From Archangium sp. (GTDB lineage: Bacteria; Myxococcota; Myxococcia; Myxococcales; Myxococcaceae): a stretch of DNA of 64,000 bases. Below the pieces are notes generated by a model. It had not been told where the DNA came from. It made no database searches and saw nothing but the letters and a program-made list of their open reading frames with translations. Positions 28,102 through 48,617 of the stretch are shown here, one piece after another (positions within the stretch are counted from its first letter, which is position 1; every line of letters starts with the position of its first letter). The stretch lies in contig JAUYRZ010000079.1 in the NCBI GenBank assembly GCA_030695565.1, forward strand, positions 62,001 through 126,000, in the 5' to 3' direction. The translations under genes were made by a program, and so were the position numbers.

Positions 28102-28392
28102 ATGGCCACCGCGAAAAAAGAAAAAGCGCCGACCCCCGCCGAGCCGCAGGTTCTCCCCGAGCAGAGCTACCCCGTGCTCGAGGGCTTCGTCGAAAAAGCA
28201 ACGTCAGATGACATTGGAGCCCTCTTCAAGGACTTGAAGACCCAATTGGGCGCGCTCAAGGGACCCAAGGCCGAGCAGGGCAAGAAGGTCGGCAAGGCCA
28301 TCGAACGTACAGAGGAGCTGTTGTCCTACCTCCTGCAAGTTCGCGAAAAGCTTGAGGCTGACCGCAAGGGCAAGGGTGCCAAGCGCCGCTGA
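28102..28392 (+). CDS. Small Lys-rich helical protein, unknown
   Basis: This encodes 96 residues with Lys-rich ends (MATAKKEKAPTPAE ... KLEADRKGKGAKRR) and two amphipathic helices between them. There is no membrane segment or signal peptide. It starts 20 bp after the HEAT-repeat gene and precedes the first putative T3S substrate. Small charged helical proteins in T3S loci are often chaperones or cytosolic adaptors, but I see no motif that decides this. Confidence 0.65.
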   Translation: MATAKKEKAPTPAEPQVLPEQSYPVLEGFVEKATSDDIGALFKDLKTQLGALKGPKAEQGKKVGKAIERTEELLSYLLQVREKLEADRKGKGAKRR

Positions 28393-28411
28393 AAAATGAT
28401 CCACCGGGCGT

Positions 28412-28441
28412 CACGCAACTCGCCTTCTCAGTGCGCGATAA
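28412..28441 (+). promoter_or_regulatory. Candidate sigma-28-like promoter of the first putative substrate gene
   Basis: TCACGCAACT (from 28411) is followed 12 bases later by GCGCGATAA (28433-28441). The GATAA-ending box resembles the -10 element GCCGATAA of FliA-type sigma factors. A near-identical pair occurs before the second putative substrate (44415-44445), and a FliA-like sigma gene lies at 30069. No experiment is implied; this is a pattern match between two upstream regions. Confidence 0.45.
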
Positions 28442-28521
28442 TCGAATCACAGGGCGCCTCCGACAAGGGTCGGGGGAACGGAACCCTGGAAACTTCCCGC
28501 TGTTTCCTCAAGGAGAATCAC

Positions 28522-29064
28522 ATGAGCAACATCAACGGTATCAACGGTGGCATGCCGAACCGCATCTCGATGAACGTCACGGTCGCCAAGCAGAGCCAGG
28601 GCGCCACGTTCGGTGAGAAGGTCAACGCCGGTCTCCACGCGGCCGGTTCGGCCATCGGCCAGGGCGCTTCGCTCCTCGGTGGCGCGCTCCCCGGTGGTTC
28701 GGTCATCTCGGCGGCGGTCTCGTCGGTCGGTAGCCTCGCTGGTGGCCCTGGTACCGCAGCGGCGGCCAGCTACGCCGCGACCGGCGTGGTGGGCTTCTCG
28801 GGCGGCGCCGGTGGCGCGGCCGTCGGTGGCAGCCCCATCTCGGTGGGCGCGGGCTCTGCCGCTGGCCCGAACCTCACCGCAGGCGCCGGCACCAACGGCA
28901 TGGGCGCGTACAACAACGACATCGCCTCGATGTCGGCCCAGAACAGCCAGATGCTCCAGGTTCAGATGGCGATGCAGCGCGAGAACACGATGTTCTCCTC
29001 GATCTCGAACGTCCTGAAGACCAAGCACGACACGGCGAAGAACTCGGTCGGCAACATCCGCTGA
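28522..29064 (+). CDS. Putative T3S export substrate / extracellular structural subunit (paralogue 1)
   Basis: This encodes 180 residues starting MSNINGINGGMPNRISMN with a good ribosome-binding site (AAGGAG). There is no Sec signal peptide. The N terminus is polar and the middle (residues 40-120) is Gly/Ala/Ser-rich and mildly hydrophobic. The last 50 residues form a predicted amphipathic helix ending KHDTAKNSVGNIR. That ending is shared with the protein at 44501-45163 (SHDQTRGSMIQNLR). A short, secreted, helix-ended protein made from its own transcription unit (possible promoter upstream, hairpin downstream) inside a T3S locus fits a needle, filament or translocator subunit. I cannot match it to SctF by sequence, so the role is inference. 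Confidence 0.6.
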   Translation: MSNINGINGGMPNRISMNVTVAKQSQGATFGEKVNAGLHAAGSAIGQGASLLGGALPGGSVISAAVSSVGSLAGGPGTAAAASYAATGVVGFSGGAGGAAVGGSPISVGAGSAAGPNLTAGAGTNGMGAYNNDIASMSAQNSQMLQVQMAMQRENTMFSSISNVLKTKHDTAKNSVGNIR

Positions 29065-29091
29065 GCTCGAACTAGAATACGCAGTCACGCG

Positions 29092-29122: not shown

Positions 29123-29195
29123 TTATCGCCTCGCGTTTCTCCCCACCTCTCTGAAGCCACGAAGAGCGGCTTCACTTGCAAGGACAAAGAGCCCC

Positions 29196-29645
29196 ATGAC
29201 GGAAGCGAAGTCGGACATCGCCGGCAGCCTCGTCCCGATGAGCAAGCAGCAAGCGATGCTCATGCTCGAAGCCGGCTACCTGTGGATGGATCTGGGCAAG
29301 TTCGACCACGCGCGCGAGCTGCTGTCGGGCGCGTCGTTGCTCATGCCCAAGAGCGAAGTGCCGCAGATCGCGTTGGGCAGCCTCGAGTTCAACCAGGGGC
29401 ATTTCGACAAAGCGCTTCAGGTGTTCAGGCGGGCCCAGCAGTTGGCGCCCCGGGCCTCATTGCCACGCGCTCACTGCGGTGAGACGCTGCTGTTCATGGG
29501 CAAGGTGAACGAAGCCATGAAGGAGCTCAAGTCGGCACTCGAGCTCGAGCCCAAGAGTGACGGCGCCCGTTTCGCCGAAGCGCTCATCGCAGCCAAAGAG
29601 ACCGGCGCGCTCCCGCCCCCGGCCAAGCAGCAGAAAGCGAAGTAA
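29196..29645 (+). CDS. TPR protein, probable T3S chaperone (SctG/SycD-like)
   Basis: This encodes 149 residues made of about three TPR units (AGYLWMDLGKFDHARELL; GSLEFNQGHFDKALQVFRRA; HCGETLLFMGKVNEAMKELKSA). T3S loci carry short TPR proteins that hold needle subunits or translocators before export. Its position directly after the first putative substrate suggests that protein as client. It is followed at 7 bp by the gene at 29652, and probably forms an operon with it and the sigma factor. Confidence 0.75.
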   Translation: MTEAKSDIAGSLVPMSKQQAMLMLEAGYLWMDLGKFDHARELLSGASLLMPKSEVPQIALGSLEFNQGHFDKALQVFRRAQQLAPRASLPRAHCGETLLFMGKVNEAMKELKSALELEPKSDGARFAEALIAAKETGALPPPAKQQKAK

Positions 29646-29651
29646 CGAACC

Positions 29652-30062
29652 ATGTCTGTTCGAGGAGTCGGTCGCGGAGGCAAAGCAGGCGGCGCCAGAG
29701 GAGCCTCTGGTGCTGGAGGTGCGTCGAAAGCCGGCGCAGCCAGCGGTGCCTTCGGGGCCAAGGTCGACAAAGCCGAGTCGTTGGTCGGGCCTTCGGGCGC
29801 GGCAGGCTCGTCGAACGTCGGCAACGTCGGCCCGACTGATCCCGTCACCGCGCAGGCGATGGACCTCGTTCGGCAGCTCCGTTCAGGCCAGCTGAAGAGC
29901 CGTGAAGAGGCGACCAAGAAGCTGGTGGCCGACATTCTGCGCGACAAGGTGCGCACGCAGTCGAAGAAGCTGACCGAGAAGATCTTCGAGCAGCTCAAGG
30001 ACGATCCCCGTCTCAACCAGACCCTCGAGCGCTTGTGGGATCGCGCCGAGGAGCAGGAGTAA
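29652..30062 (+). CDS. Unknown protein upstream of the sigma factor; possible FlgM-like regulator
   Basis: This encodes 136 residues. The first 60 are Gly/Ala/Ser-rich and unstructured. The rest is helical and charged. The segment MDLVRQLRSGQLKSREEATK followed by KLVADIL resembles in pattern the sigma-binding end of FlgM (helix, LRxxIxxGxLxxD, then IAxxLI). It lies 6 bp before the FliA-type sigma gene. FlgM proteins inhibit FliA and are exported through the flagellar T3S. An anti-sigma role here is an inference from position and a weak pattern match. A T3S-specific chaperone or adaptor is equally possible. Confidence 0.5.
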   Translation: MSVRGVGRGGKAGGARGASGAGGASKAGAASGAFGAKVDKAESLVGPSGAAGSSNVGNVGPTDPVTAQAMDLVRQLRSGQLKSREEATKKLVADILRDKVRTQSKKLTEKIFEQLKDDPRLNQTLERLWDRAEEQE

Positions 30063-30068
30063 TCGGCC

Positions 30069-30836
30069 GTGGCGCTCGGGGAAACGAAGCCGCAGATCCT
30101 CGAGAAGTACGGTCCGTACGTACGGTCTCTGGCTGCCCAGGTTCGCAAGCAGTTCAACTCGCAGTTCGAGATGGACGAGCTCGTCGCGTGGGGCCAGATC
30201 GGCCTGCTGGAAGCCGCGGAGCGTTTCGATGCCCGGGTGGGCGCCAACTTCCTCACCTTTGCCCACTACCGCATCAAGGGCGCCATCTACGACGGCCTGC
30301 GGAAGATGGGCGTGCTGAAGGGTGGGGCGGCGGCGTCAGAGCGCGCCAACGCCTACATGACGAACCTCTCCGATCGCGGGGGGGGTGGCACCTCCCTCGA
30401 TGACGACGTCCGGGAAATCTCCGGCGCTGTAACGGGTCTTGCCATGGTCTTCGCGACCAGCCTGGAGGGGAGCGAAGGCCTTCAGGTCACCGACGAAGCC
30501 CTGCCGGCCGACGAGAAGATTCAGCTCGAGCAGATGCGCCGCCGGGTGCGCGCGGCCATCGAGAAGCTCCCGGAAAAAGAGCGGAAATTGCTCCAGGGCT
30601 ACTACTTCCAGAACAAGACGCTGGAAGAGGCCGGGGCCGAAATTGGCCAGTCAAAAAGCTGGGCCAGCCGCCTGCACGCCCGCGCAGTTGAGACGCTGAA
30701 GCAACTTCTCGACGAAGACGACGACAACCCGTCAGACCACAACAGGAGCAATGACCATGGCCGGACCACTGGCAGGAATCTCGGCAGCGCAGATCGCCCA
30801 GCAGAAGCTCCCCGACCAGGCCGCACAGCAGGCTAA
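30069..30836 (+). CDS. FliA/WhiG-type RNA polymerase sigma factor
   Basis: This encodes 255 residues from a GTG. Region 2 is clear (EMDELVAWGQIGLLEAAERF, then FLTFAHYRIKGAIYDGLRKMG, the typical FliA/SigF/WhiG sequence), as is region 4 (EKLPEKERKLLQGYYFQNKT, AEIGQSKSWASRLHARAVE). The middle (about residues 85-145) is less conserved. The C-terminal tail, from the Asp run to the stop, overlaps the next gene (sctI) by 86 bp in another frame and looks non-conserved, so the real product may effectively end near region 4. Its presence inside a T3S locus suggests local control, for example of the two putative substrate genes. Confidence 0.88.
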   Translation: MALGETKPQILEKYGPYVRSLAAQVRKQFNSQFEMDELVAWGQIGLLEAAERFDARVGANFLTFAHYRIKGAIYDGLRKMGVLKGGAAASERANAYMTNLSDRGGGGTSLDDDVREISGAVTGLAMVFATSLEGSEGLQVTDEALPADEKIQLEQMRRRVRAAIEKLPEKERKLLQGYYFQNKTLEEAGAEIGQSKSWASRLHARAVETLKQLLDEDDDNPSDHNRSNDHGRTTGRNLGSADRPAEAPRPGRTAG

Positions 30837-31281
30837 GGCCGGGCCGAGCAAGTTCGATCAGAGCCTCAAGGGCCAGGGCCCCGACGCCGCCGGCAAGGTC
30901 GGCCACGCTCAGCAGGTTCAGCAGGTTCAGAAGCTCGACCAGATCAAGCACGTCGACCAGGTCCAGAAGATGGACAAGGCGGGCCTCAACAAGCTCGACA
31001 AGAACGTCACCGGCAAGGGCATGGATCCCGTCGCCCAGAAGACCGAAGTCTCCAAGTCTTCTTCGATGATGTCCTCGATGATGGCCAACCTCGAGAAGGG
31101 TCAGGCCCACATCGACAAGCTCATCAACGGCGGCATCTCCAACGGCAAGTCGATGTCGAACCAGGAGCTGCTCTCGATGCAGGCCGGCATGTACAAGTAC
31201 ACGCAGGAGCTCGACCTCGTTTCGAAGGTCGTCGAGAAGGCCACCAGCGGCCTGAAAGACACGCTCAAGACCCAGGTCTGA
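30751..31281 (+). CDS. sctI: T3S inner rod protein SctI
   Basis: This encodes 176 residues. AGGAGC precedes the ATGs at 30751 and 30757; either may be used. The C terminus carries the family pattern ELLSMQAGMYKYTQELDLVS followed by KVVEKATSGLK and a short tail, which matches YscI/PrgJ/SctI rod subunits (a LLxxQxxxxxYxxxxELxSKxxxxxxxG core). The N-terminal 100 residues are Gln/Lys-rich and longer than in classical SctI (about 110-140 residues in total). SctI forms the inner rod below the needle in the export channel. The gene lies between the sigma factor and sctJ and ends at a strong terminator. Confidence 0.8.
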   Translation: MTMAGPLAGISAAQIAQQKLPDQAAQQAKAGPSKFDQSLKGQGPDAAGKVGHAQQVQQVQKLDQIKHVDQVQKMDKAGLNKLDKNVTGKGMDPVAQKTEVSKSSSMMSSMMANLEKGQAHIDKLINGGISNGKSMSNQELLSMQAGMYKYTQELDLVSKVVEKATSGLKDTLKTQV

Positions 31282-31342: not shown

Positions 31343-31369
31343 CGTTTCTTTGGTATGGTCTGCGCCCTC

Positions 31370-32164
31370 ATGAGCCGTTTCGTGCGCTCCACTCTTTTCG
31401 TCGGTGTGATCCTCCTCGCTTCTGCGTGCACCCTCGAGGTGCAGCACGATCTGACGGAGGACGACGCGAACGACATCTACGTGCTGCTCCAGGGCGAAAA
31501 CATCGACGCCACCAAGCACAAAGAAGGCGAAGGCAAAGAGGCCCGCTACAACATCTCGGTGCCCAAGGCCGACGTGGCCAACGCCGCCAAGCTGCTGCGC
31601 GAGTACTCGTTGCCCCGCCCGCGCTCCGACGGCCTGGCCATCTTCAAGATGACCAAGGGCATGATCCCCACGCAGACCGAAGAGCGCGCGATGTTCATCG
31701 AAGCGCTCGGCGGTGAGGTGAGCAACGCGCTCAACCGCATTCCCGGCGTGCTCGAGGCGAGGACCATCGTGATGCTGCCCGAGGTCAACGATCTCACCCA
31801 GCCCGAGAAGAAGCCGCTCCCGTCGGCCTCGGTGTTGATCAAGTACATGGTCAACAAAGACGACAAGGCACCGGTGGCCGTCGACGACGTGCAGAGCTTC
31901 GTGGCCAACGCCGTTCCCGAGCTGAAGAAAGAGAACGTCAAGGTGCTGATGACGGAGGCCAAGTTCGAGAAGACCACCGACACCACCGAGCGCACCGTGT
32001 TCATCCTCGGCGTGAAGGTAGAGAAGTCGAGCGCTGGCACCTTCAAGACCATCATCGGCGTGTTCGCGCTGCTGTTCATCTCGATGGCCGGCCTCACCGG
32101 CTTCATGGTGATCCGCAAGCCCGCGTCACGTCCGGCCCCCCGCAAGAACACTACGGAAGGCTGA
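31370..32164 (+). CDS. sctJ: T3S inner-membrane ring lipoprotein SctJ
   Basis: This encodes 264 residues with lipobox LLASAC (Cys20). The YscJ/FliF ring-building motifs are visible: LTEDDANDIYVLLQGENIDA, then SLPRPRSDG, RAMFIEALGGEVSNALNRIPGV (split by motif) and SVLIKYM, followed by a C-terminal membrane helix (about residues 228-250). The length agrees with SctJ (about 245-270) and is far shorter than flagellar FliF (about 550). This, together with the lipid anchor, marks the system as non-flagellar. It forms the inner-membrane ring that surrounds the export gate. It is the first gene of a long operon running through sctV. Confidence 0.94.
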   Translation: MSRFVRSTLFVGVILLASACTLEVQHDLTEDDANDIYVLLQGENIDATKHKEGEGKEARYNISVPKADVANAAKLLREYSLPRPRSDGLAIFKMTKGMIPTQTEERAMFIEALGGEVSNALNRIPGVLEARTIVMLPEVNDLTQPEKKPLPSASVLIKYMVNKDDKAPVAVDDVQSFVANAVPELKKENVKVLMTEAKFEKTTDTTERTVFILGVKVEKSSAGTFKTIIGVFALLFISMAGLTGFMVIRKPASRPAPRKNTTEG

Positions 32165-32201: not shown

Positions 32202-33656
32202 GTGGAGCAATTCTTCACGTCGCTGTCCAAGCGGCAGACGATGCTCCTGTTGACCTCTCTGGCCTTCGGCGGCTCGGAGGCCGTCGGGGCATACGAACAT
32301 CTCGACCAGGGTGAAGAAGAGCTGCTCAAGCACCGCGCTGCCGGGGTGCTGCAGATCCCCCGCGAGAAGCGCGTCCCGCTCCTGGTGCAGGAGATCAAAC
32401 GCCTGGTCACCCAGCGCCGCCGCCAGCTGGCCGCGGCCGACCCCAAACGCCTCGCCGTGCTGCTCAAGAAAGAACGCTCCACCGTGGTCGAGGTGGTGCT
32501 GGGTGCGTTGGCCTCTGATCTCGCCAACGCAGTGCGCGCCGAGATGGGCAACCCCGCGCCGGTGAAGCTGCTGCGCGACGTGAACCCCGAGGTGCTCTCG
32601 ATCGTGCGCTGGAAGCTGGAAGACGCGATGCGCTCCAACGCGCCGCAGGTGGGCAGCTTCCGCTTCACCGATCTGTCGATGATGCAGCAGCGCGAGATCC
32701 TCGCGGTGGCCGATCGCATGGGCGCGCGGGTGTTGGCGACCGCGGTGGCCGGCCTGCCCGAAGAAGATCGCCAGGCCTTCTTCGGCAAGCTGCCGCCTGA
32801 TCAGCGCGTGCTGGCGGCGCGGGCGGCCGAAGCGGGCGCCACCCGAAGGCTCACCGAAAAAGACGCCAAGCTCGTGCTCGAGATGCACGGCGCGCTGGAG
32901 AACCCCTCGCTGGGCATGCGCAGCGCCGGCATTCAGCGAATCATTCGCGCCTGCTACGCGCAGTCGCCCGAGTTCGCGCAGCGTTTCGCCGAGCGGCACC
33001 AGGGCGAGATCGGCAAGCTGCTCAACCGCTGGCTGCGCGAAGAGAAGGGCAAGCCCATCAAGGGTGACGGCGGCCGGCTCGACATCGTGGAGCAGATCGA
33101 GCGGCTCGCGCAGAAGGGCATCATCGATCGCCCGATGCGCCTGCCGCCCCCCATGAAGGCCCCGGCCGCGCCGCCCATGCTCCGCCCGCCGCCGGGCAGC
33201 GCCGCGCCTTCGAACCCGCAGAACCCGCAGTCGAAGGTGTTGGTGGCGCCGCCAGCTCGCCGTTCGACCGGGTCGGTGGCGCAGGCCCCGGCGTTGCCTT
33301 CCGCACCCCGCAGCCGGCCGATCGCCGCCGCGCCTGGCGCCCCGCCCCGGAGGGATCTGATGGCCGACCGGGAGGCCCGACGCGCGGGTGCTGCCGGCTC
33401 GGGTGTGGTGCCCAACTCGAAGCCCGGCGCTCGGCCCACCGACTCGCAAGTGCGAGCGCAACGTGTGCTGCGTGACGGCAAACCGTTGCCCAACGATCAG
33501 CTCGAGACGCGCCCACCCCAGCGCTCCCAGTCGTCGCCGGTGTCGGCGATCCCGAAACGACGTGAGCCGCCCGGGTCGGCCGGGAGCACCACCAACCCCC
33601 AGCGATCCCCGGTGCTCAAGGGTCCTGGTCGTGGACCGGCCGGTGGTTCGCGTTAG
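32202..33656 (+). CDS. FliG-like protein in the SctK position
   Basis: This encodes 484 residues from a GTG. Residues about 80-116 (DPKRLAVLLKKERSTVVEVV...) resemble the FliG middle-domain pattern. Residues 152-212 resemble FliG_C: FRFTDLSMMQQREILAVAD, then LATAVAGLPEEDRQAFFGKL, matching F-x-D-L...R-x-I...L-A-x-A-L-x-G...F-F-x-x-M. A Pro/Ala-rich tail of about 160 residues follows. FliG is the rotor/switch protein of flagella, placed between FliF and FliH. Here it lies between sctJ and sctL, where classical T3S loci have sctK. I cannot test the relation by search, so FliG-like or SctK-analogue remain alternatives. Confidence 0.62.
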   Translation: MEQFFTSLSKRQTMLLLTSLAFGGSEAVGAYEHLDQGEEELLKHRAAGVLQIPREKRVPLLVQEIKRLVTQRRRQLAAADPKRLAVLLKKERSTVVEVVLGALASDLANAVRAEMGNPAPVKLLRDVNPEVLSIVRWKLEDAMRSNAPQVGSFRFTDLSMMQQREILAVADRMGARVLATAVAGLPEEDRQAFFGKLPPDQRVLAARAAEAGATRRLTEKDAKLVLEMHGALENPSLGMRSAGIQRIIRACYAQSPEFAQRFAERHQGEIGKLLNRWLREEKGKPIKGDGGRLDIVEQIERLAQKGIIDRPMRLPPPMKAPAAPPMLRPPPGSAAPSNPQNPQSKVLVAPPARRSTGSVAQAPALPSAPRSRPIAAAPGAPPRRDLMADREARRAGAAGSGVVPNSKPGARPTDSQVRAQRVLRDGKPLPNDQLETRPPQRSQSSPVSAIPKRREPPGSAGSTTNPQRSPVLKGPGRGPAGGSR

Positions 33657-33667: not shown

Positions 33668-34396
33668 ATGGATGACGGGCCGCGCGACGAACGAAGACCT
33701 TCAGGTGGTGCACCCCGGGTGATCGGTAAGGTCATCAAGGGTGACAGTGGAGAGATCTCTCCGCTGGTTCCCGTTGCGCCCCCGAGCGGTGGTGGCGGTC
33801 CTCCGCCCCGCCGTGGCGTGGTGAACGCCGAGGAGTACGAGGCGAAGACGGTCGCCAAACAGATCATCGCCGACGCTCAAGCCAAGGCCGAAGAGATCAA
33901 GGCAGAGGCGCTGCGCTTCAAAGAAGAGGTCTTCGCCAAGGCGCGCGACGAGGCCAAGGCCGACGTGCAGGCCCGCCAGGCCGAAGAGCTGGCGCGCGCC
34001 AAGATGCAGGCCGGGCAGATCATCGCCGACAGCGAAAAAGACGTGCTGGAGCTCGCGCTCAAGGTGGCCGCGAAGATCATCAGCCGTGACCTCGAGCGTG
34101 ATCCCGAGCTGGTGATGGAGATCGTGGCCAGCTGCACCGAGGCCGCTCGCAGCAGCAAGGCGATGATCATGAAGGTGCACCCCGAAGACGGGAAGCTCCT
34201 GCGTGAGAAGAAGCCGCGCCTCATCGAGCTCATCGGGCGCGCGGTGGACATCTCGATTCGCGACGACTCCGAGGTCGAACGCGGCGGCTGCATCATTCAG
34301 ACGGAGTACGGCACCATCGACGGCCAGATCCGCACGCAGTTCGAGATGCTGCGCAACGTGCTGATGCCGGCAGACGCCAAAAGAGAAGTGAAGTGA
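33668..34396 (+). CDS. sctL: T3S stator protein SctL (FliH/YscL family)
   Basis: This encodes 242 residues. The N terminus is Pro/Gly-rich, then comes a long Lys/Glu/Ala coiled coil (AKQIIADAQAKAEEIKAEAL), and the C-terminal domain (ALKVAAKIISRDLERDPE; GCIIQTEYGTIDGQIRTQFE) is typical of FliH/SctL. SctL is the stator of the SctN ATPase. The stop codon overlaps the start of the ATPase gene. It is encoded 11 bp after the FliG-like gene, consistent with one operon. Confidence 0.93.
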   Translation: MDDGPRDERRPSGGAPRVIGKVIKGDSGEISPLVPVAPPSGGGGPPPRRGVVNAEEYEAKTVAKQIIADAQAKAEEIKAEALRFKEEVFAKARDEAKADVQARQAEELARAKMQAGQIIADSEKDVLELALKVAAKIISRDLERDPELVMEIVASCTEAARSSKAMIMKVHPEDGKLLREKKPRLIELIGRAVDISIRDDSEVERGGCIIQTEYGTIDGQIRTQFEMLRNVLMPADAKREVK

Positions 34397-35715
34397 TGGC
34401 GATCGATCTCCGCCGCTACGCGGATCTCGTGAAGACCACCCAGACCGTGCGCGTGCGCGGCCGGGTGACCGAGCTGACGGGCCTGGTGATCAAAGCCGCG
34501 GTGCCCAACGTGCGCATCGGCGAGGTCTGTTTGATTCGCAGCGGCCGCTCTGAAGTGCGCGCCGAGGTGGTCGGTTTTCAGGGCGAGACGGTGATGCTCA
34601 TGCCGCTGGGCGAGTTGTCCGGCATCGGCCCCGACTCTGAGGTCGTACCCACTGGCAGGCCGCTGATGGTCTGGGCGGGTGATGGGCTGCTCGGGCGCGT
34701 GCTCAACGGGCTGGGCGAGCCCATCGACGGCCGGCCGCTGCCCACCGAGACGATGGTGCCCTGGGCGGTGGACCGCGATTGTCCCGACCCGTTCAAGCGC
34801 CAGCGCATCACCCGGCCGCTCTCTCTGGGCGTGCGCTGCATCGACGGCCTGCTCACCGTGGGCGAAGGCCAGCGCATCGGGCTCTTCGCAGGCTCCGGCG
34901 TCGGTAAGTCGACGCTGATGGGTCAGATCGCAAGGCAGACGTCGGCTGAGCTCTCGGTCATCGCGCTCATCGGCGAACGCGGCCGCGAAGTGCTGGAGTT
35001 CATGGAAGACGCCTTGGGCGAAGAGGGCATGAAGCGCTCCGTGGTGGTCTGCGCGACCTCCGATCAGCCCGCGCTGGTGCGTCTGCGCGCAGGCTACGTG
35101 GCCACCGCCATCGCCGAATACTTCCGCGAACGCGGAGGCAACGTGCTCTTCATGCTCGACACGGTGACTCGTCTCGCGCGCGCCCAGCGTGACATTGGCC
35201 TCGCCATCGGTGAGCCGCCCGCCCGCCAGGGCTACCCGCCGTCGGTCTTCTCGATGTTGCCGCGCATGATGGAGCGCACGGGGAACTCGGAGAAGGGCAA
35301 GTGCACCGCCATCTACACCTGCCTGGTGGCCGGTGGAGACATGGAAGAGCCCATCGCCGACGAAGTGCGCGGCATTCTCGATGGTCACTTCATCTTGAAC
35401 CGCGCCATCGGTGAACGAAACCAGTGGCCCGCGATGGACGTGCTGGCCTCGCTGTCCCGCGTGATGAGCCAGATCGTGTCGAAGGAGCACAAGAAAGCCG
35501 GCGGTAAGCTCCGCGAGACGCTGTCGACCTACGAGAAGCAGCGCGACCTGATTCTGCTGGGCGCCTACCAGTACGGCACCGACCCGCGCACCGACTACGC
35601 CATCGACAAGTACGACCAGATCATCGGCTTCTTGAAGCAGGACACGCACGAGAACTGCCCCTTCGAAGAGACGGTGCAGCGCCTGGTCGACATGTTCGCT
35701 GACGCGGCCGAGTGA
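34396..35715 (+). CDS. sctN: T3S ATPase SctN
   Basis: This encodes 439 residues from the ATG at 34396 (TGATG overlap with sctL); a GTG immediately upstream is also possible. Walker A is AGSGVGKST (about residues 165-173), Walker B FMLDTVTRLARAQRDIG, and the T3S/FliI marker GYPPSVFSMLPRMMERTG is present. The length is normal (430-460). SctN hexamers unfold and chaperone-strip substrates at the base of the export channel. In operon with sctL upstream and sctO downstream, as usual. Confidence 0.96.
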   Translation: MAIDLRRYADLVKTTQTVRVRGRVTELTGLVIKAAVPNVRIGEVCLIRSGRSEVRAEVVGFQGETVMLMPLGELSGIGPDSEVVPTGRPLMVWAGDGLLGRVLNGLGEPIDGRPLPTETMVPWAVDRDCPDPFKRQRITRPLSLGVRCIDGLLTVGEGQRIGLFAGSGVGKSTLMGQIARQTSAELSVIALIGERGREVLEFMEDALGEEGMKRSVVVCATSDQPALVRLRAGYVATAIAEYFRERGGNVLFMLDTVTRLARAQRDIGLAIGEPPARQGYPPSVFSMLPRMMERTGNSEKGKCTAIYTCLVAGGDMEEPIADEVRGILDGHFILNRAIGERNQWPAMDVLASLSRVMSQIVSKEHKKAGGKLRETLSTYEKQRDLILLGAYQYGTDPRTDYAIDKYDQIIGFLKQDTHENCPFEETVQRLVDMFADAAE

Positions 35716-35781: not shown

Positions 35782-36279
35782 ATGCCTCCGTATCGACTGC
35801 AGGTCCTGCTCGACATCCGCACCAAGGCCGAAGAGGCCGCGAAAGATGCGTTCGCCGAGGCGCTCAAGGCGGCCGACAAGGAAAAGAAGCAGCTGGCCAG
35901 CATGAACCAGCAGCTCGAGCGCATGAAGGTCGAGCGCAAGGCCAAGGTGCAGGCCTTCCTTCAAGAGATGACGGCCAAGGGCGGCGGCATCACCGCCTTC
36001 CAGCAGATGGGCCGCTTCGAGCAGCGCCTGAAGGACGAAGAAGCCCAGTTCATGCTCGACATCGAGCGGCAGAAAGAGGTCGTCATTCAGGCCGACGCGC
36101 TGGTCGAACAGCGCCGCGCTGAGATGGCCGAGGCCGCCAAAGAGAAGAAGGCGATCGAGAAGAACAAAGAGAACTGGGCCAAAGAGGTCAAAAAAGAGCG
36201 CCAGACGAAGGAAGAAGCCAACCAGGAAGAGATCGGGGCCGTGCTTCACCTCGCTCGCACCCGCCGGGAAAACTCATGA
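35782..36279 (+). CDS. sctO: T3S stalk protein SctO (FliJ/YscO-like)
   Basis: This encodes 165 residues, almost entirely charged coiled-coil helix with a PPYRLQVLLDIRTKAEEAAK start like FliJ. FliJ/SctO form the central stalk of the ATPase ring and connect it with SctV. The position after sctN and before sctP fits. Sequence identity in this family is low, so assignment is mainly from length, composition and order. The end overlaps the following gene by four bases (ATGA). Confidence 0.82.
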   Translation: MPPYRLQVLLDIRTKAEEAAKDAFAEALKAADKEKKQLASMNQQLERMKVERKAKVQAFLQEMTAKGGGITAFQQMGRFEQRLKDEEAQFMLDIERQKEVVIQADALVEQRRAEMAEAAKEKKAIEKNKENWAKEVKKERQTKEEANQEEIGAVLHLARTRRENS

Positions 36280-41192: not shown

Positions 41193-42248
41193 GTGTCTGA
41201 AGGTGGCGACAAGACAGAGGAACCGTCTCAAAAGAAGATCGACGATGCCCGCAAGAAGGGCAACGTCTGGAAGAGCAAGGATCTGTCGGGCGTCTTCGCG
41301 CTCGCCGTCGCCATGAGCGTGGTGGGCGGCACCTGGGGCGCGTTCGAGACCCGCATCAAGGAGCTCTTCCTCTTCGGCGTCGATCACATCGCGCACCCCG
41401 ATGATCTCGCGCTGGCCACCACCCAGCTGATCTATCTGTCGCTGCAGGCGCTCCTGCTCACCTGCATCCCCATCGCGTTCTCCGCGGCGATCGCCGGCGG
41501 CCTGATGGAGTTTCTCCAGGTCGGGGCGCTGCTCGCGCTCGACGCGGTGATGCCCAAGCTCGAGAAGCTCAACCCCATCGAGGGCCTGAAGAACCTGGTG
41601 GGCAAGAAGCAGCTGGTCGAGCTCTTCAAGTCGATGTTCAAGCTGAGCGTCACTGGCTACGTGGTGTGGGGCGTGGTGCACGACGCGATGGGCCTGGTGG
41701 TGGCCACCATTCACGGCGACGCGGCGATCACCATGATGGTGATGGGCGAGCTGGTCACCCGCATCTGCAAGAAGGTGATCTTGATGTTCGTGGGCTTCGC
41801 CATCTTCGACGTCTGGTGGCAGCACAAGAGCTACATGAAGGACCAGATGATGTCGAAGGACGACGTCAAGAAGGAATACAAGGAGTCGGAAGGCGACCCG
41901 CACCACAAGGCCAAGCGCAAGGAGCTCGCGCACGAGCTGCTGGAGAGCGCGCAGATGGACTCGGTCAAAGGCGCCGACGTGATCGTCACCAACCCCGATC
42001 ACGTGGCCATCGCGCTCAAGTACGACAAGGCCAACGACGGCGCGCCGCGCATCATCGCCAAGGGCATCGAGCTGCGGGCCGAAGGCATTCGTGAGCTCGC
42101 GCGCAAGTACGACGTGCCCATGCTGCGCAACGTGCCGCTCGCGCACGCGCTGCTGCGCATCGACGTGAACCAGGAAGTGCCCGAGGAGCTCTACGACGCG
42201 GTCGCCGAGGTGCTCAACTTCGTCTACCAGTTGAAGAAGTCGGCTTGA
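41193..42248 (+). CDS. sctU: T3S switch protein SctU (FlhB/YscU)
   Basis: This encodes 351 residues from a GTG with GAGGAGG upstream. The N terminus (GDKTEEPSQKKIDDARKKGN) is canonical, then four membrane helices, then a cytoplasmic domain with the autocleavage motif NPDH at residues 267-270 (family NPTH, with NPxH variants known). Self-cleavage between Asn and Pro allows substrate switching by SctP. The C-terminal 85 residues are nearly duplicated in the small gene at 43184-43459. It closes the sctRSTU block. Confidence 0.95.
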   Translation: MSEGGDKTEEPSQKKIDDARKKGNVWKSKDLSGVFALAVAMSVVGGTWGAFETRIKELFLFGVDHIAHPDDLALATTQLIYLSLQALLLTCIPIAFSAAIAGGLMEFLQVGALLALDAVMPKLEKLNPIEGLKNLVGKKQLVELFKSMFKLSVTGYVVWGVVHDAMGLVVATIHGDAAITMMVMGELVTRICKKVILMFVGFAIFDVWWQHKSYMKDQMMSKDDVKKEYKESEGDPHHKAKRKELAHELLESAQMDSVKGADVIVTNPDHVAIALKYDKANDGAPRIIAKGIELRAEGIRELARKYDVPMLRNVPLAHALLRIDVNQEVPEELYDAVAEVLNFVYQLKKSA

Positions 42249-42280
42249 TCGACGCGCGCCCGCGCGACCACGATGACGGG

Positions 42281-43141
42281 ATGAAGGTCGACGCAGCAAT
42301 TCTGGACGAGGCGTGCGGCGTGTTGTCAGCCGGTGGCGTGCCGATGCTCGCGGTGCTCGAGCTCCACGAGCGCCTGGAGTCGGGTGCCGCCCGCGCTGTC
42401 TTCTCCCGCACTGAAGAGGGCCAGGCAGTGATGGTGGTCGACGATCGCGGCTCGTGGCGCCAGGTGGTGGCGGCAGGTGGCCCCGAATCGGCGTTGCTGG
42501 CCGGGCTTCACGAACTGAGAGGCACCTCCGAGGCCCTGGTGTGGGACGAGGACTGCGTGAAGATCGCCCCGGCCACGCTCGACGAGCTCGGCTTTCGGCT
42601 GCTGCTGCGCCAGGTCTTCACTCAGGAGCTCTCGCGGGTGCCGCTCGATCAACCCGAGCCCGCGGGCCTCGAAGTGTCGCTCCTGGGTGACACCTCGCTG
42701 GCCGAGTCGCGGGCCCTCTTCGCGCGCACGCACGCCGGCAGCGTCGAGGGGCTCTACGCCACCTTGCCGCACGCCCCCACCGACGCGCAGTGCGGGCTGG
42801 CCTTCGACGGGTATCTGAGCGGTGCGCTGGGCGTGCCCGTGCCGTCGGCCTGTGTGGTGATTCGCCACGAGGGCAGGGTGGGAGGGGTGATCTGCTGCGC
42901 GGCCTCCGAGGAGAAAGACACCGGCACGTTGCTGGGGTTGGCAGTCGACCCGACGGTGCGAGGCAAAGGGCTTTCGCGGGTGCTGGTGCGAAGGGCCCAG
43001 AAGGCGCTGCACGCCGCCGGCTTTGCGAAAATGTTGTTCCTCACCACCGATCGCAATGCGCCGGTGCACCGGCTCTTCACGCTCGAGGAGATCGTCAAGA
43101 CCGAGACCTTTCCTACCCGGCTGTGGCTGCGGAGCAGGTAG
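42281..43141 (+). CDS. GNAT-family acetyltransferase within the T3S locus
   Basis: This encodes 286 residues from ATG 42281; a TTG overlapping the sctU stop (42245) would add 12 residues. The C-terminal half has the acetyl-CoA-binding GNAT motif A (TLLGLAVDPTVRGKGLSRVL, then RRAQKAL) and motif B with MLFLTTDRNAPVHRLF. The N-terminal 120 residues have no clear domain. GNAT enzymes transfer acetyl groups to amines on proteins or small molecules. Placement between sctU and its C-domain duplicate suggests it is part of the operon, and it might modify a secretion component; this is speculative. Confidence 0.78.
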   Translation: MKVDAAILDEACGVLSAGGVPMLAVLELHERLESGAARAVFSRTEEGQAVMVVDDRGSWRQVVAAGGPESALLAGLHELRGTSEALVWDEDCVKIAPATLDELGFRLLLRQVFTQELSRVPLDQPEPAGLEVSLLGDTSLAESRALFARTHAGSVEGLYATLPHAPTDAQCGLAFDGYLSGALGVPVPSACVVIRHEGRVGGVICCAASEEKDTGTLLGLAVDPTVRGKGLSRVLVRRAQKALHAAGFAKMLFLTTDRNAPVHRLFTLEEIVKTETFPTRLWLRSR

Positions 43142-43183: not shown

Positions 43184-43459
43184 ATGCCTGAAGATGCCGA
43201 CATCGCCATCGCCCTCAAGTACGACCGCGAGAAGGACAACGCGCCGCGGGTCATCGCCAAGGGCATGCGGCTCAAGGCCGAGAAGATTCGCGAGATCGCC
43301 AAGCAGTACGGCGTGCCGTTCATGAAGAACACCACCCTCGCCGGCGCGCTGTACCGGGTGGACGTCGGCCAGGAAGTGCCCGAAGAGCTCTATGACGCGG
43401 TGGCCGAAGTGCTGAACTTCGTGAACGCGCTGCAGCAGCAGGCCAACAGCAAGAAGTGA
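43184..43459 (+). CDS. Stand-alone FlhB/SctU C-terminal-domain protein (FlhX-like)
   Basis: This encodes 91 residues, almost collinear with SctU from its cleavage site onward (IAIALKYD, APRVIAKGMRLKAEKIREIA, QEVPEELYDAVAEVLNFV). At the position of NPDH in SctU this protein has EDAD, so it cannot self-cleave, and it has no membrane helices. It thus mimics the released C-terminal fragment of SctU. Similar free FlhB C-domain proteins (FlhX) are known beside flagellar loci. It probably arose by a duplication of the sctU end, with the GNAT gene now between the two copies. Confidence 0.88.
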   Translation: MPEDADIAIALKYDREKDNAPRVIAKGMRLKAEKIREIAKQYGVPFMKNTTLAGALYRVDVGQEVPEELYDAVAEVLNFVNALQQQANSKK

Positions 43460-43474
43460 TGGAGGAGATTGACC

Positions 43475-43954
43475 ATGGCGAAGATCGGACAACCGCAGAC
43501 ACGCGCTCCAGCCTGGCCGTGGGGTGGCCCCACCGGCGTACGCGAGAAGCTCGTCAACAAGGCGCAGCTCGACCGCAAGAACGTCCGCAAGAAGGGCGAC
43601 CCCAAGAACCCCGCGCTCGCTTCGGCCGCGCTGCTCGATTCGATTGGCCCCGCGCGCTCGGCAGAAGAAATCCGCCTGCCCATGCCTCCCGGCCCCGCGG
43701 GTCACGACTCCGATCTCGAGGGCTACACCGATCGCGGGCCGCTCTTCTCGGTCGCCGAGCGCCTCGCCGAAGCGAACCAGGAGGCGATGCAGCGGGGCCT
43801 GGGCACCTTGCGCGCGCCGCCCGATCGCGTGGAGCGCCTCAAGTCGTTGCTGGCCCGTGAGTCGTCGATGCTCGAGCTGGTCGGCACGGTGAGCAACGAC
43901 ATGGCGGAGATCGAACGCCGCCGCCGCGAAGAGACGATGGAAGAGGGCTACTGA
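43475..43954 (+). CDS. T3S-locus protein of unknown function
   Basis: This encodes 159 residues from ATG 43475, seven bases after GGAGGAG. It is basic and Pro-rich at the N terminus (TRAPAWPWGGP, KAQLDRKNVRKKGDPKNP) and helical and acidic at the C terminus. There is no signal peptide or membrane helix. It lies between the FlhX-like gene and a SycD-like TPR gene, with which it is contiguous (stop and start adjacent). It could be a chaperone partner, gatekeeper or substrate, but nothing in the sequence decides this. Confidence 0.65.
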   Translation: MAKIGQPQTRAPAWPWGGPTGVREKLVNKAQLDRKNVRKKGDPKNPALASAALLDSIGPARSAEEIRLPMPPGPAGHDSDLEGYTDRGPLFSVAERLAEANQEAMQRGLGTLRAPPDRVERLKSLLARESSMLELVGTVSNDMAEIERRRREETMEEGY

Positions 43955-44407
43955 ATGTCTGACGACGCGGCCCTCGCCCAGCGGCTCCAGAAGTGGGCCG
44001 ACGGCAAGGCGACCCTCAAAGACGTGCGCGGCTACACCGATGAGGAGCTCTACTCAATCGCGCGCACGGGTTACTACTTCTACTACCAGGGCAAGGTGAA
44101 CGAGGCCCGCACGGTCTTTCAGGGCCTCTACGCCATCAACCCGATGGATCCGTACTTCGCCAAGGCGCTGGGCGTGGTGGAGATGGCCGCGGGCAACCCT
44201 GCGGGTGCGGTCGCGGCTTACGACGTGGCGCTCAAGATCGCGCCGCAAGACGCCACGGCGTACCTGGGGCGGGCGGAAGTGAAGCTTCTCCAGGGTCAAA
44301 AGGCCCAGGCGATGGATGATTTGAAGCGCGCGCTTCAGTTCTCGAAGCCCGAATCGGCCGAAAACATGAAGGTTTCCGCGATGATGGCGGTTCTCTCAAA
44401 AAAATAG
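43955..44407 (+). CDS. SycD/LcrH-type TPR chaperone of T3S
   Basis: This encodes 150 residues. After a helix with GYTDEELYSIARTGYYFYYQ there are three TPR units (GKVNEARTVFQGLYAINPMD; AKALGVVEMAAGNPAGAVAAY; AYLGRAEVKLLQGQKAQAMDDL). This is the architecture of class II chaperones (SycD, IpgC, SicA), which protect translocator proteins before export. The next gene (44501) encodes a putative secreted protein with a hydrophobic N terminus, a likely client. The gap to it holds the candidate promoter. Confidence 0.82.
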   Translation: MSDDAALAQRLQKWADGKATLKDVRGYTDEELYSIARTGYYFYYQGKVNEARTVFQGLYAINPMDPYFAKALGVVEMAAGNPAGAVAAYDVALKIAPQDATAYLGRAEVKLLQGQKAQAMDDLKRALQFSKPESAENMKVSAMMAVLSKK

Positions 44408-44500: not shown

Positions 44501-45163
44501 ATGGGTGGTGCACTTAAGTCTATCGGCGGTGCTATCGGTGGCGTCATCAAGCAGGTTGCCCCGTCGGTCATCAAGGCGATCGCCCCTGCGGCGAGCAAGC
44601 TCCTCGGCGGCATCGCTGGCGACATCTTCCAGAAGGGCGCTGGCTTCATCAAGAACGCGCTCGCTGCTTCGCCCCTGCCCGGTCCCCTCAAGGCGATTGG
44701 TGAGAAGCTCCTCGGCACCGGCCTCGACAAGCTGACCCAGTTCGCTCAGGGCGGCATCGACAAGCTGATCCAGTCGCTCGGTGACATGGTCACCAAGCGC
44801 TTCGCCCCCGGCGCCGGCAACATCGCGCTGCCCGGCCTGCCCGGCCGCCAGGATGCCATCGCGAACAACAACCCGGCCGCTCCGTCCTCGTCGTCCAGCG
44901 CCGCCACCGGCTCGTCGTCGAGCGCCGCCACGGGCAGCACCGGCAGCTCGAACCCCTCGGGCGCCTCCTCCAGCAGCAACCTTCCTCCCAAGCCGCTGAC
45001 CGGCGAAGAGGCGAAGGACGTTGGCAAGCAGAACGAGTACAACCAGAAGATGTTCGACTACCAGCAGGCGATGTCGAACATGAACAAGTTCTGGGAAATG
45101 ATGTCGACCGTGCAGAAGTCGCACGACCAGACCCGCGGTTCGATGATCCAGAACCTCCGCTAA
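44501..45163 (+). CDS. Putative T3S export substrate / extracellular structural subunit (paralogue 2)
   Basis: This encodes 220 residues starting MGGALKSIGGAIGGVIKQVA, with AAGAGG upstream. There is no Sec signal. The first 70 residues are amphipathic and hydrophobic (Gly/Ala/Ile/Leu), like membrane-inserting translocators. A Ser/Ala-rich linker (SSSSAATGSSSSAATGS) follows. The last 50 residues are helical and end SHDQTRGSMIQNLR, closely similar to the end of the protein at 28522-29064. It is flanked by SycD-like TPR genes, has its own candidate promoter and a very strong terminator. This suggests an abundant exported protein, such as translocator or filament. No named family matched by eye. 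Confidence 0.62.
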   Translation: MGGALKSIGGAIGGVIKQVAPSVIKAIAPAASKLLGGIAGDIFQKGAGFIKNALAASPLPGPLKAIGEKLLGTGLDKLTQFAQGGIDKLIQSLGDMVTKRFAPGAGNIALPGLPGRQDAIANNNPAAPSSSSSAATGSSSSAATGSTGSSNPSGASSSSNLPPKPLTGEEAKDVGKQNEYNQKMFDYQQAMSNMNKFWEMMSTVQKSHDQTRGSMIQNLR

Positions 45164-45294: not shown

Positions 45295-45882
45295 ATGAGC
45301 GAAAAGAAGAAGGAAGAGTCCACGGGCATCGCGAGCGCGATCCCGGGCATCGAAGTGGTCAAAGAAGCGACGCCCAACTGGGAGAAGCTCCTCTACACCC
45401 CCGAGCGCAAGGCTGCGTTCCAGAAGGGGGAGATGAACCTTCGCGACTACCACGCGATCAGCGGCCCCGAGATGCTGCAGATGGCGCTCATCGGCTTCCG
45501 TCTCTACGAGCAGGGCAAGTACAGCGAAGCGAAGACCATCTTCTCGGGTCTCATCTCGCTGGAGCCCACCGAGTCGTATTACCACACGGCGCTCGGCGCG
45601 GTGTTCCTGGCCGAAGAAGACCTGGAGATGGCGCGCGGTTACTTCGACGTGGCGATCGGGCTGAACCCGAAAGAGGTCGCCCCGTACGTCAACCGCGGTG
45701 AAGTGAACCTGCGCGACGGCAAGATCCTCGAGGCCGCCGAAGACTTCGCCAAGGCCGTCGAGCTCGATCCCAAGTTCGAAGATCCGCTCACCCAGCGTGC
45801 CCGCGTGCTCGCCGCCGCTGCGCTCGAGATGATCGAAGCGGCGACGAAGGACGAGCCCAAGAAGGACGCGAAGAAGAAGTGA
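45295..45882 (+). CDS. SycD-like TPR protein of the T3S locus
   Basis: This encodes 195 residues. A Lys/Glu-rich head leads into three or four TPR units (ALIGFRLYEQGKYSEAKTIF; ALGAVFLAEEDLEMARGYFD; NRGEVNLRDGKILEAAEDFA), ending in a Lys-rich tail. GGGGAG precedes the ATG. It is homologous in layout to the proteins at 43955 and 45891. It follows the second putative substrate and probably serves as its second chaperone or links it to the export machine. Confidence 0.78.
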   Translation: MSEKKKEESTGIASAIPGIEVVKEATPNWEKLLYTPERKAAFQKGEMNLRDYHAISGPEMLQMALIGFRLYEQGKYSEAKTIFSGLISLEPTESYYHTALGAVFLAEEDLEMARGYFDVAIGLNPKEVAPYVNRGEVNLRDGKILEAAEDFAKAVELDPKFEDPLTQRARVLAAAALEMIEAATKDEPKKDAKKK

Positions 45883-45890
45883 AGTAGTCG

Positions 45891-46445
45891 ATGACGCGCG
45901 GCTCCAAACCGGTCGAGATCGTCTACTACCCGAAGAAGGCGCGGGGCCCTGTGCCCAAGCGCATTCAGACGGTGGAGACCCTCATCACCGAGGAGCCGCC
46001 CGAAGTCGATCGCCGGCCCTCTCGCAAGGGCCGGAAGACGTTGACCGATGAGACCGTCGATCCGGCCGAACAGGCGTTCGTCGATCTCACCCGGTTGGGC
46101 CACGAAGCGTTCGAGGCGGGCCGCGCTGATGAAGCGCGGGTCATCTTCGAGTCGCTGGTGGCGTTGGGCCGGCGAGACCCTTTTGCCCACACCATGCTGG
46201 GCACCATCTTGTTGGGCGGCAACGCCCTCGACGGCGCGCTGGAGCAGTTCGAGGCCGCGCTCGCCATCGACCCGGACGATCTGGCTGCACTGGTCTACCG
46301 GGGGGAGATTCGCCTCTCGCGGCGTAAGGTCGCCCGGGCGGTGGAAGACCTGGAGCGCGCCGTTGCGTTGGGCCATGCGTCAGACCCGTTCGTTGCAAGA
46401 GCGCGGAAACTGCTGACGCTGGCACGCGCGAATCGCACGTCGTGA
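45891..46445 (+). CDS. TPR protein of the T3S locus
   Basis: This encodes 184 residues. The first 60 residues are basic and unstructured (PVEIVYYPKKARGPVPKRIQ), then TPR units follow (HEAFEAGRADEARVIFESLV; HTMLGTILLGGNALDGALEQ). It starts 8 bp after the previous TPR gene and ends 27 bp before sctV. The basic N-terminal extension differs from the other TPR proteins here and may bind acidic partners. The exact role is unknown. Confidence 0.75.
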   Translation: MTRGSKPVEIVYYPKKARGPVPKRIQTVETLITEEPPEVDRRPSRKGRKTLTDETVDPAEQAFVDLTRLGHEAFEAGRADEARVIFESLVALGRRDPFAHTMLGTILLGGNALDGALEQFEAALAIDPDDLAALVYRGEIRLSRRKVARAVEDLERAVALGHASDPFVARARKLLTLARANRTS

Positions 46446-46472
46446 GTCGTTTGCGGTAACCTCCGCCGCCTC

Positions 46473-48617
46473 ATGGCAGCCGGTCCAGCGGGTTCAGGCA
46501 AAGGTTTCATCAACAAGTACTCGGACGTCGTGCTCGCCATCGTCGTGATGTCGATCATCGGGATGTTGATCGTCCCGCTCCCGACGTTCCTGTTGGACAT
46601 CCTCCTCACCATCAACATCAGCCTGTCGGTGATCATCCTGCTGATGTCGCTCTACATTCCGGGCGCATTGCAGTTCAGCGTGTTCCCCACGCTGCTGCTG
46701 ATCACCACGATGTACCGGTTGGCGCTCACCGTCTCGACCACACGACTGATCTTGTCGGTCGGTGATGCAGGCGAGGTCGTCTACGCGTTCGGTAACTTCG
46801 TCGCGCGCGGCAACTTCGTGGTCGGTGGCATCGTCTTCGTGATCCTCGTGATCGTGAACTTCATCGTGATCGCCAAGGGTTCTGAGCGTGTCGCCGAAGT
46901 GGCCGCCCGCTTCACCCTCGACGCCATGCCCGGCAAGCAGATGTCGATCGACGCCGACCTGCGCGCAGGCTCGATCGAGATGGAAGACGGCAAGCGCAAG
47001 CGCCGCGATCTCGAGCGCGAATCACAGCTCTTCGGCGCGATGGACGGCGCCATGAAGTTCGTCAAGGGCGACGCCATCGCCGGCATCATCATCACGGTGG
47101 TGAACATCGTCGGCGGCCTGGCGATCGGCGTGGCGCAGAAGGGCATGACGGTGGGTGAGGCGGCCAAGAAGTACGCGCTGCTCACCATCGGTGACGGCCT
47201 GGTCGGCATGATCCCCGCCATCCTCATCTCCACCGCGGCAGGCATCATCGTGACGCGCGTGGGCGGCGAAGAAGAAGGCGCCCACCTCGGCAAGGACATC
47301 AGCTCGCAGCTGATCGCCTACCCGCGCGCCATCGGCATCGCCGGCGGCATGTTGATCGTGCTGGGCCTGGTGCCCGGCTTGCCCAAGGTACCGTTTCTCC
47401 TGCTGGGCTCGGCGGCCGCTGGTGGCGCGTACATGATGATCAAGCGCCAGAAGAAGATCGACAGCGGCGAGCTGGGCGCTGACGGCGAGGCGCCGGGAGC
47501 AGAAGGCGAAGACGAGAAGGCCCAGGCCACCGAGCCCGCCCCCAAAGAGCCGATCAACCCCGACTCCGAGCTCTTCATCCCCGTGGTCACGCCCATCGTG
47601 TTGGAGGTCTCCGACGCGTTGGTGCCCTTCGTCGACTCGCGGCAAGACGGCGGCAAGTTCCTCTTCGAGCTGGTGCCCTTCATGCGCGACGGTTTGTTCG
47701 TCGAGCTGGGCGTTCGGTTCCCCGGTGTGCGCGCGCGCGGAAACCCCGGCCTGCCGCCGGGCGCGTACCAGATTCAGATCAACGAAGTGCCCGTGGTCAC
47801 CGGCCAGGCGACGCTGGGCCACATTCTGGTCAACGACACCGTCGATCGCCTGCGGCTGATGAACATCGAAGGTTTCGATGCGATCAACCCGGCCACCCGT
47901 CAGCCAGCGGCCTGGGTGCCCGAAGCGAACAAGGACATGCTGGAGGCCGCCGGCCTCACCACCTGGGACGTGCCCGGCTACATGATCCTCCACGTGGCCT
48001 CCGTGCTGCGCCGCCACGCGCGCGAGTTCGTCGGCGTGCAGGAAGTGCAGACGATGCTCGACCAACTCGAGAAGGCCTTCCCGGCCATCGTGAAGGAGGT
48101 CGTGCCGAAGGTCGTCACGGTGCTCAAGCTCACCGACATCCTCGGGCGCCTGGTCGAAGAAGAGATCTCCATTCGCGACCTGCGCGGCATTCTCCAGGCG
48201 CTGGCGGAGCAGGGCCAGATGGAGGCCGACAGCGTGATGCTCACCGAGCACGTGCGCAGCTCGCTCAAGCGCTACGTCTCGCACAAGTACGCCCGCGGCA
48301 CGAACACCCTGGTGGTGTACCTGCTCGACCCGCAGATCGAAGACGCCATTCGCAGCTCGATCAAGCGCACCTCGGCCGGCACGCACCTCGCGCTCGAGCC
48401 CGACATCGCGCAGGAGATCGTGCAGGCGGTGAAGAACGAGTGTGGCCACCTCCCGCCCACCGCGCAGCGCCCGGTGATCCTCACCTCGATGGACATTCGA
48501 CGGTACGTGCGCAAGTTGCTCGAGTACGAGTTCAACCCGCCGTTCTCGGTGGTGAGCTACCAGGAGCTTTCGCCTGAGCTGAACATTCAGCCCGTGGCTC
48601 GCATCAGCACCCGGTGA
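46473..48617 (+). CDS. sctV: T3S export-gate protein SctV (FlhA/LcrD)
   Basis: This encodes 714 residues. Seven to eight membrane helices fill the first 330 residues and include the FHIPEP-type region, here NFIVIAKGSERVAEVAARFT and DAMPGKQMSIDADLRAG. A linker of about 60 residues precedes the cytoplasmic domain of four subdomains (ISIRDLRGILQALAEQGQ and the end PELNIQPVARIS). Nine copies form the ring that receives chaperone-substrate complexes. The size is normal (about 690-710). It is the last gene of the locus, as the TPR chaperones immediately upstream would suit. Confidence 0.96.
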   Translation: MAAGPAGSGKGFINKYSDVVLAIVVMSIIGMLIVPLPTFLLDILLTINISLSVIILLMSLYIPGALQFSVFPTLLLITTMYRLALTVSTTRLILSVGDAGEVVYAFGNFVARGNFVVGGIVFVILVIVNFIVIAKGSERVAEVAARFTLDAMPGKQMSIDADLRAGSIEMEDGKRKRRDLERESQLFGAMDGAMKFVKGDAIAGIIITVVNIVGGLAIGVAQKGMTVGEAAKKYALLTIGDGLVGMIPAILISTAAGIIVTRVGGEEEGAHLGKDISSQLIAYPRAIGIAGGMLIVLGLVPGLPKVPFLLLGSAAAGGAYMMIKRQKKIDSGELGADGEAPGAEGEDEKAQATEPAPKEPINPDSELFIPVVTPIVLEVSDALVPFVDSRQDGGKFLFELVPFMRDGLFVELGVRFPGVRARGNPGLPPGAYQIQINEVPVVTGQATLGHILVNDTVDRLRLMNIEGFDAINPATRQPAAWVPEANKDMLEAAGLTTWDVPGYMILHVASVLRRHAREFVGVQEVQTMLDQLEKAFPAIVKEVVPKVVTVLKLTDILGRLVEEEISIRDLRGILQALAEQGQMEADSVMLTEHVRSSLKRYVSHKYARGTNTLVVYLLDPQIEDAIRSSIKRTSAGTHLALEPDIAQEIVQAVKNECGHLPPTAQRPVILTSMDIRRYVRKLLEYEFNPPFSVVSYQELSPELNIQPVARISTR

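Follow-up and report, generated by a model that had tools for sequence, protein, structure and literature searches.

In a 64,000-nt stretch of the 8.5 Mb genome of Archangium sp. (the window; coordinates count from its first position), a run of genes at 28.1-48.6 kb, all on one strand, encodes a type III secretion system (T3SS). This is a "long" Myxo-type non-flagellar T3SS, as described by Abby and Rocha in 2012 (PMC3459982), and belongs to the inner-membrane T3SS* of myxobacteria. The T3SS* of Myxococcus xanthus (MXAN_2434-2464), which has the same genes in the same order and also has no secretin, is required for prey lysis (PMC12075869; PMC10433427) and is recruited to prey contacts by Kil (PMC12075869). 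It has been published as needleless, without SctF and FliG, whereas loci of the type found in the window have relatives of the needle family and a FliG-like protein. We lean towards the view that the system is not truly needleless, and that two proteins of the window, here called F1 and F2, together with short forms in related genera, are distant relatives of SctF. At the level of sequence, the published label looks wrong; an earlier report of this may exist, the literature checked being the open-access part. Where these findings depart from the published lack of SctF and FliG, we take the description to be mistaken rather than the locus to be another system.

Needle-like tails of F1, F2 and short relatives

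F1 (28522-29064, plus strand; 180 aa, although starts farther upstream are possible) and F2 (44501-45163, plus strand; 220 aa) both end in a helix of about 45-60 aa that is related to the SctF needle family. In F1 this domain covers approximately residues 128-180, as judged from profiles and Pfam, while in F2 it is preceded by an amphipathic N-terminal region and a Ser-rich linker. In relatives from Myxococcus, Corallococcus and other genera, genes of SctF size (71-77 aa) that encode little beyond the tail domain are located near the F2 position. One genome has seven tandem copies of SctF size, which encode one identical protein and differ in their DNA only by synonymous substitutions.

A profile of 32 tails that had been chosen without any needle model (set A3) was compared to all sequences in PDB. 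The top match, at E 6.6e-6, was chain F of 7Y6C, a structure in which the needle helix of the Edwardsiella needle protein EsaG is gripped by its two co-chaperones (PMC9426511); PrgI and MxiH came next. The same top match was obtained with a profile of the short 72-77 aa proteins alone (1.8e-4), and a wider set, A13, gave 13 matches at E<=0.0013, all of which were needle proteins. The PDB matches of the Myxococcota tail profile above background were needle proteins only (EsaG in 7Y6C, PrgI, MxiH and BsaL), and a reversed-profile control against PDB found no needle protein. The tails and the needle proteins (PrgI, MxiH, YscF, EsaG; PF09392) end in register at the C-terminus, with the C-terminal helix aligned to the last residue.

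The Pfam family matched by the largest number of A3 members was PF09392 (14 of 32). It was the sole Pfam match of F1 in M. xanthus AM003 (E 0.0081), and the F2 protein of one relative matched it at 1.2e-5. When PF09392 was searched over the genome of the window, F1 was the sole match, at E 0.168. Across 195 Myxococcota genomes, many matches were F1, F2 or short-form genes in T3SS loci, and in two of these genomes the curated cut-off of 29.4 bits was exceeded, both times by genes in the F2 position.

Several observations weigh against a needle relationship. F1 of the window scores 16.4 bits, and both F1 and F2 fall below the PF09392 cut-off. With 180 and 220 aa as compared to about 80 aa for needle-only proteins, they carry N-terminal extensions unlike SctF, and the likeness spans just 45-60 or so residues of helix. 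The tail is also found on proteins of 300-1400 aa, an arrangement that suits cargo better than a filament. Set A13 is biased towards PF09392, as some of its members, unlike those of A3, were found with that family, and the AlphaFold model of F1 is too poor for a fold search (predicted local distance difference test score 49). Since a profile of F1 proteins only reaches no needle proteins, the assignment draws on single-protein Pfam matches, on the mixed and short-form profiles and on synteny. The open-access literature on M. xanthus reports no needle, and no SctF was found in the profile searches of Abby and Rocha (PMC3459982). Their result and the low scores of the single F1 and F2 proteins would both be expected if the system were truly needleless and the tails had converged with needles as amphipathic helices. 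We consider this improbable, because with three profiles no PDB family other than the needle proteins rose above background, the reversed profile found no needle protein, the matches are in register at the C-terminus, and the tails are syntenic with SctI-SctJ and co-occur with SctO.

About 20 loci, which represent many families of Myxococcota, have this gene order in common, and its conservation is far beyond chance. One of them is from the named strain M. xanthus AM003 (locus L084), where F1 and the FliG-like gene occupy the same places as in the window. Every long locus that extends far enough has an F1 homolog at the same position. In a second, short T3SS locus of the same genome (contig C26), an F1 homolog is located immediately before SctI-SctJ. 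The context is shared with SctF in that there are TPR partner genes, a place near SctI-SctJ and SctF-sized forms in related genera. In a profile search the tail family was identified in 164 of the 195 Myxococcota genomes, and among the 124 genomes with SctO it was present in 122, the remaining two being 59% and 73% complete. The association has a Fisher p of 6e-13, a value that is uncorrected for phylogeny and inflated by shared ancestry.

The lack of SctC and of the periplasmic domain of SctD, together with the apparent lack of SctK, could be taken to mean that an injectisome or a flagellum has decayed here to a relic. This is very improbable, given that gene order and intact frames have been kept in many Myxococcota families and that the M. 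xanthus version is needed for prey lysis (PMC12075869).

Needle-like tails on proteins outside the locus

The tail is also present on proteins encoded elsewhere. In a sample of 80 open reading frames outside T3SS loci, picked by their match to the tail (orphans), it ends at most six residues from the stop in every case, and a small TPR gene on the same strand follows within 100 bases in 21. Their N-terminal parts are variable, some of 300-500 aa and some of more than 1000 aa, and most have no Pfam match. Two needle-tailed proteins contain a calpain-family cysteine protease domain (L192:4381-6549; L238:4998-9212). In a Myxococcaceae genome (G111), four proteins differ in their N-termini but are nearly identical over the last 60 residues, and a fifth is more distant. 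The F2-position proteins of distant families are 430-465 aa long, contain hydrophobic segments and are encoded between two TPR genes. The genome of the window has an orphan of its own (C22:161419-161577; L184:9417-10766, minus strand), which is followed by a TPR gene and is a candidate for a T3SS cargo protein in Archangium sp. Together, these patterns suggest that the needle-tailed orphans are T3SS cargo.

Two further observations concern genes of this kind. One genome (G013; loci e.g. L254, L259, L264, L272) encodes 32 needle-tail proteins, frequently in an arrangement of two large genes and then a TPR gene, and no match to a YscO-like SctO was found in it. In a Myxococcaceae genome, a gene for a protein-arginine deiminase (PF03068; L136:3964-8855) is located near an orphan needle-tail gene.

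The orphans bring in the main rival explanation, according to which none of F1, F2 and the orphans is a filament subunit: all would be substrates for secretion, either translocators or effectors, the tail would be a C-terminal chaperone-binding and export signal, and cargo would be passed to Kil/Tad without a needle. The strictly C-terminal placement of the tail in all 80 orphans, the TPR genes directly after 21 of them, the calpain-family domains and the translocator-like character of the F2-position proteins in distant families are all in keeping with it. C-terminal helices that act as export signals have been described for SctX (PMC10233624, PMC9163089) and for early flagellar subunits (PMC10936197). 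Proteins of 71-77 aa that are hardly more than a tail, of which up to seven identical copies are encoded in tandem, are difficult to reconcile with substrates only, as is the canonical needle position of F1 before SctI-SctJ in both the long and the short systems. We therefore regard a pure substrate family as a serious but rather unlikely explanation.

A needle relationship and a cargo role may also be combined. Tentatively, and with somewhat less than even confidence, we propose that the Myxococcota T3SS exports a polymorphic family of needle-tailed proteins, in which short forms would build a needle or rod, while long forms with variable or enzymatic N-termini, such as the calpain-like protease, would ride on or be loaded through it with the help of dedicated TPR chaperones. 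Evolved Hcp and VgrG proteins of type VI secretion carry cargo domains. The likeness to these is by analogy only: a structural domain bears variable domains that would here be putative cargo, but the family and the machine are unrelated. The tail on many proteins is thus a candidate answer to what the locus exports, a question left open in the original prediction, which was made from the DNA letters of the window.

Gene content of the locus and the FliG-like protein

The original prediction described a secretin-less T3SS locus of the Myxococcales type with SctI, J, L, N, O, P, Q, R, S, T, U and V, and this description holds: all twelve are encoded on one strand at the expected places, as supported by Pfam and NCBIfam, the content and order are shared with M. 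xanthus, and no secretin is linked. The inventory was incomplete in that F1, F2 and the TPR chaperones were overlooked and a picture without needle genes was accepted. Pfam supports SctJ, FliG_C, SctL/FliH, SctN, a YscO-like SctO, a FliK-like SctP, SctQ, FliO, SctR, S, T, U and V and a sigma-70-family factor; for SctI the Pfam match is weak (E 0.03), and NCBIfam gives a better one (1.7e-4). SctN, SctR, SctU and SctV score above the NCBIfam Sct equivalog cut-offs and below those of flagellar FlhA, FlhB, FliP and FliI, and it is from these cut-offs together with the published tree that they are assigned as non-flagellar.

The genes from 28102 to 48617 are all on the plus strand. The first encodes a small conserved helical protein of 96 aa (28102-28392), which by synteny is always found just upstream of F1 and occupies an SctE-like place; no similarity to SctE was obtained in the PDB profile search, which gave no support to an SctE co-chaperone. 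F1 is adjoined by TPR1 (29196-29645; Pfam, synteny), a candidate needle chaperone of the SctG/LcrH type, the sequence of which is indistinguishable from generic TPR proteins. A syntenic 136 aa protein (29652-30062) directly precedes the sigma gene and could be an exported anti-sigma factor; a search for FlgM-like anti-sigma similarity gave no match. The sigma factor (30069-30836) had been predicted to be FliA-like, of which a sigma-70 family protein with regions 2 and 4 is what Pfam supports. The predicted FliG-like and FliO-like genes were both recovered.

Downstream follow the inner-rod protein SctI (30751-31281) and the inner-ring lipoprotein SctJ, which has a C-terminal transmembrane segment (31355-32164; Pfam, NCBIfam), the FliG-like C-ring protein (32202-33656), SctL/FliH (33668-34396), the ATPase SctN (34393-35715), the YscO-like SctO (35782-36279), SctP with a FliK-like C-terminus (36276-37274), SctQ with FliM and FliN domains (37271-38626), the FliO-like protein (38658-39248), SctR (39245-40069), SctS (40071-40337), SctT (40344-41183) and SctU with an NPDH autocleavage-type motif (41193-42248). 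A GNAT acetyltransferase gene (42245-43141; Pfam) separates SctU from its C-terminal paralog; it is present in a locus from the same genus (L047) and was not found in L048 or in other genera. FlhX/YlqH is a stand-alone C-terminal domain of FlhB. The protein at 43184-43459 (Pfam, synteny) has this layout, corresponding to the C-terminal cytoplasmic domain of SctU/FlhB alone, but it is encoded inside a non-flagellar T3SS locus. The remaining genes are for a syntenic 161 aa protein with no Pfam match (43469-43954), TPR2 (43955-44407; Pfam, synteny), which is a candidate chaperone of F2, and, after F2, TPR3 (45295-45882), TPR4 (45891-46445), both identified by Pfam, and SctV (46473-48617; Pfam, NCBIfam). 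On the minus strand beyond SctV there is a conserved pair of neighbors (48664-51058), encoding a protein with two FHA/YscD_cpl domains and a C-terminal membrane anchor (48664-49737; Pfam) and a TPR protein (49751-51058; Pfam, synteny).

The predicted structure of the FliG-like protein is usable over residues 1-311 and is followed by a long disordered C-terminal tail. The 12 best Foldseek matches were all FliG, and in the VIA comparison the 13 best rows were FliG with Z of 7.5-10, as compared to at most 3.9 for unrelated rows; the high root-mean-square deviation (rmsd) of the FliG rows is probably due to domain shifts. The next row after FliG was PscK, an SctK sorting-platform protein, which matched the C-terminal half (Z 6.0, 116 residues, rmsd 3.6). 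In the model, residues 1-311 have the FliG fold, as also supported by Pfam for the C-terminal domain. FliG is listed as absent by Abby and Rocha (PMC3459982), which looks wrong for loci of the type found in the window. The fold is shared with flagellar FliG, but the locus has no motor or stator partner genes, and the natural reading is that the protein would take the role of SctK, as an adaptor that connects SctQ with the SctJ ring. A FliG-like protein from a Myxococcus-type genome (L060:5436-7757) has a long tail of RVAEGSRVHS-type repeats that is missing in the window version.

Absent components and a proposed export route

A canonical injectisome has SctC and the periplasmic ring domains of SctD, whereas the locus in the window is without both, as the original prediction had stated for SctC and for a classical SctD. 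Four secretin genes were identified in the genome, two GspD, one PilQ and one short Tad-type; none of them is SctC or located beside a T3SS locus, which rules out a secretin inside or linked to the locus. The periplasmic domain of SctD was not found, PF16693 giving matches over the genome only at E>=0.34. The FHA protein beside SctV ends at its membrane anchor, as it does in all five relatives checked, and, judged by its sequence, it would correspond to the cytoplasmic half of SctD.

In agreement with the original prediction, the locus has no hook, rod, filament or motor genes. The genome has three SctV/FlhA genes, located in this locus, in the short T3SS locus on C26 and in a flagellar cluster on contig C91, and thus carries two non-flagellar T3SS loci in addition to a flagellum. 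The C91 cluster (loci L009-L010, C91:12672-51671) is complete, with its own FliPQR, FlhAB, FliH, FliI, hook and motor genes, the names beyond the shared export genes having been assigned by reading the sequences; flagellins are encoded on contigs C121 and C129. Because the cluster is complete and has its own export apparatus, the flagellum is a system separate from the T3SS locus, which rules out a flagellar explanation of the latter. Of the two observations that the original prediction had named as refuting it, flagellar genes elsewhere that form one system with the locus and a secretin gene coregulated with it, neither applies, as the flagellum is separate and none of the secretins is SctC or linked to the locus.

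The genome also contains a Kil/Tad-type cluster (L015, C112:87001-107000, 5612-12682) with an FHA-T2SSE ATPase fusion, a short BON-secretin, a prepilin peptidase and FHA proteins, a set that agrees with kil cluster I as published (PMC8460266). As the T3SS has no secretin of its own, we propose this cluster as the probable candidate for an outer-membrane partner, and export through the Kil/Tad secretin as the likely route.

These elements can be assembled into a model of needle relatives, a periplasmic conduit, a Kil-assisted route and needle-tagged cargo, to which, as a whole, we give slightly better than even confidence. The cytoplasmic and inner-membrane parts most likely work as in other type III systems, with the FliG-like protein as the link between the SctQ pods and the SctJ ring. 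The neighboring TPR proteins would hold the C-terminal helix before export and prevent aggregation, in the manner of SctG-type chaperones. SctN, SctL and SctO together with SctR-V would export the F proteins onto the SctI/SctJ base, where early subunits may polymerize into a short needle- or rod-like conduit in the periplasm. The N-termini of SctF face outward, and the N-terminal extensions of F1 and F2 would therefore sit outside such a filament. The outer membrane would be crossed at the prey contact with the help of the Kil/Tad secretin, and the needle-tagged proteins would comprise the early subunits as well as part of the cargo.

The T3SS* of M. xanthus is essential for prey lysis, and current models assume that it is a needleless evolutionary intermediate that has lost or always lacked SctF. 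Should the needle relatives prove real, it could be tested as an injectisome-like device, and an SctF relative and a FliG/SctK-like protein would predate the recruitment of the secretin. The tail would also provide a simple sequence tag that yields a list of candidate predation effectors. If the proposal is true, polymorphic needle-tailed cargo would represent the type III counterpart of evolved Hcp and VgrG, and would identify the missing effectors of T3SS* in predation.

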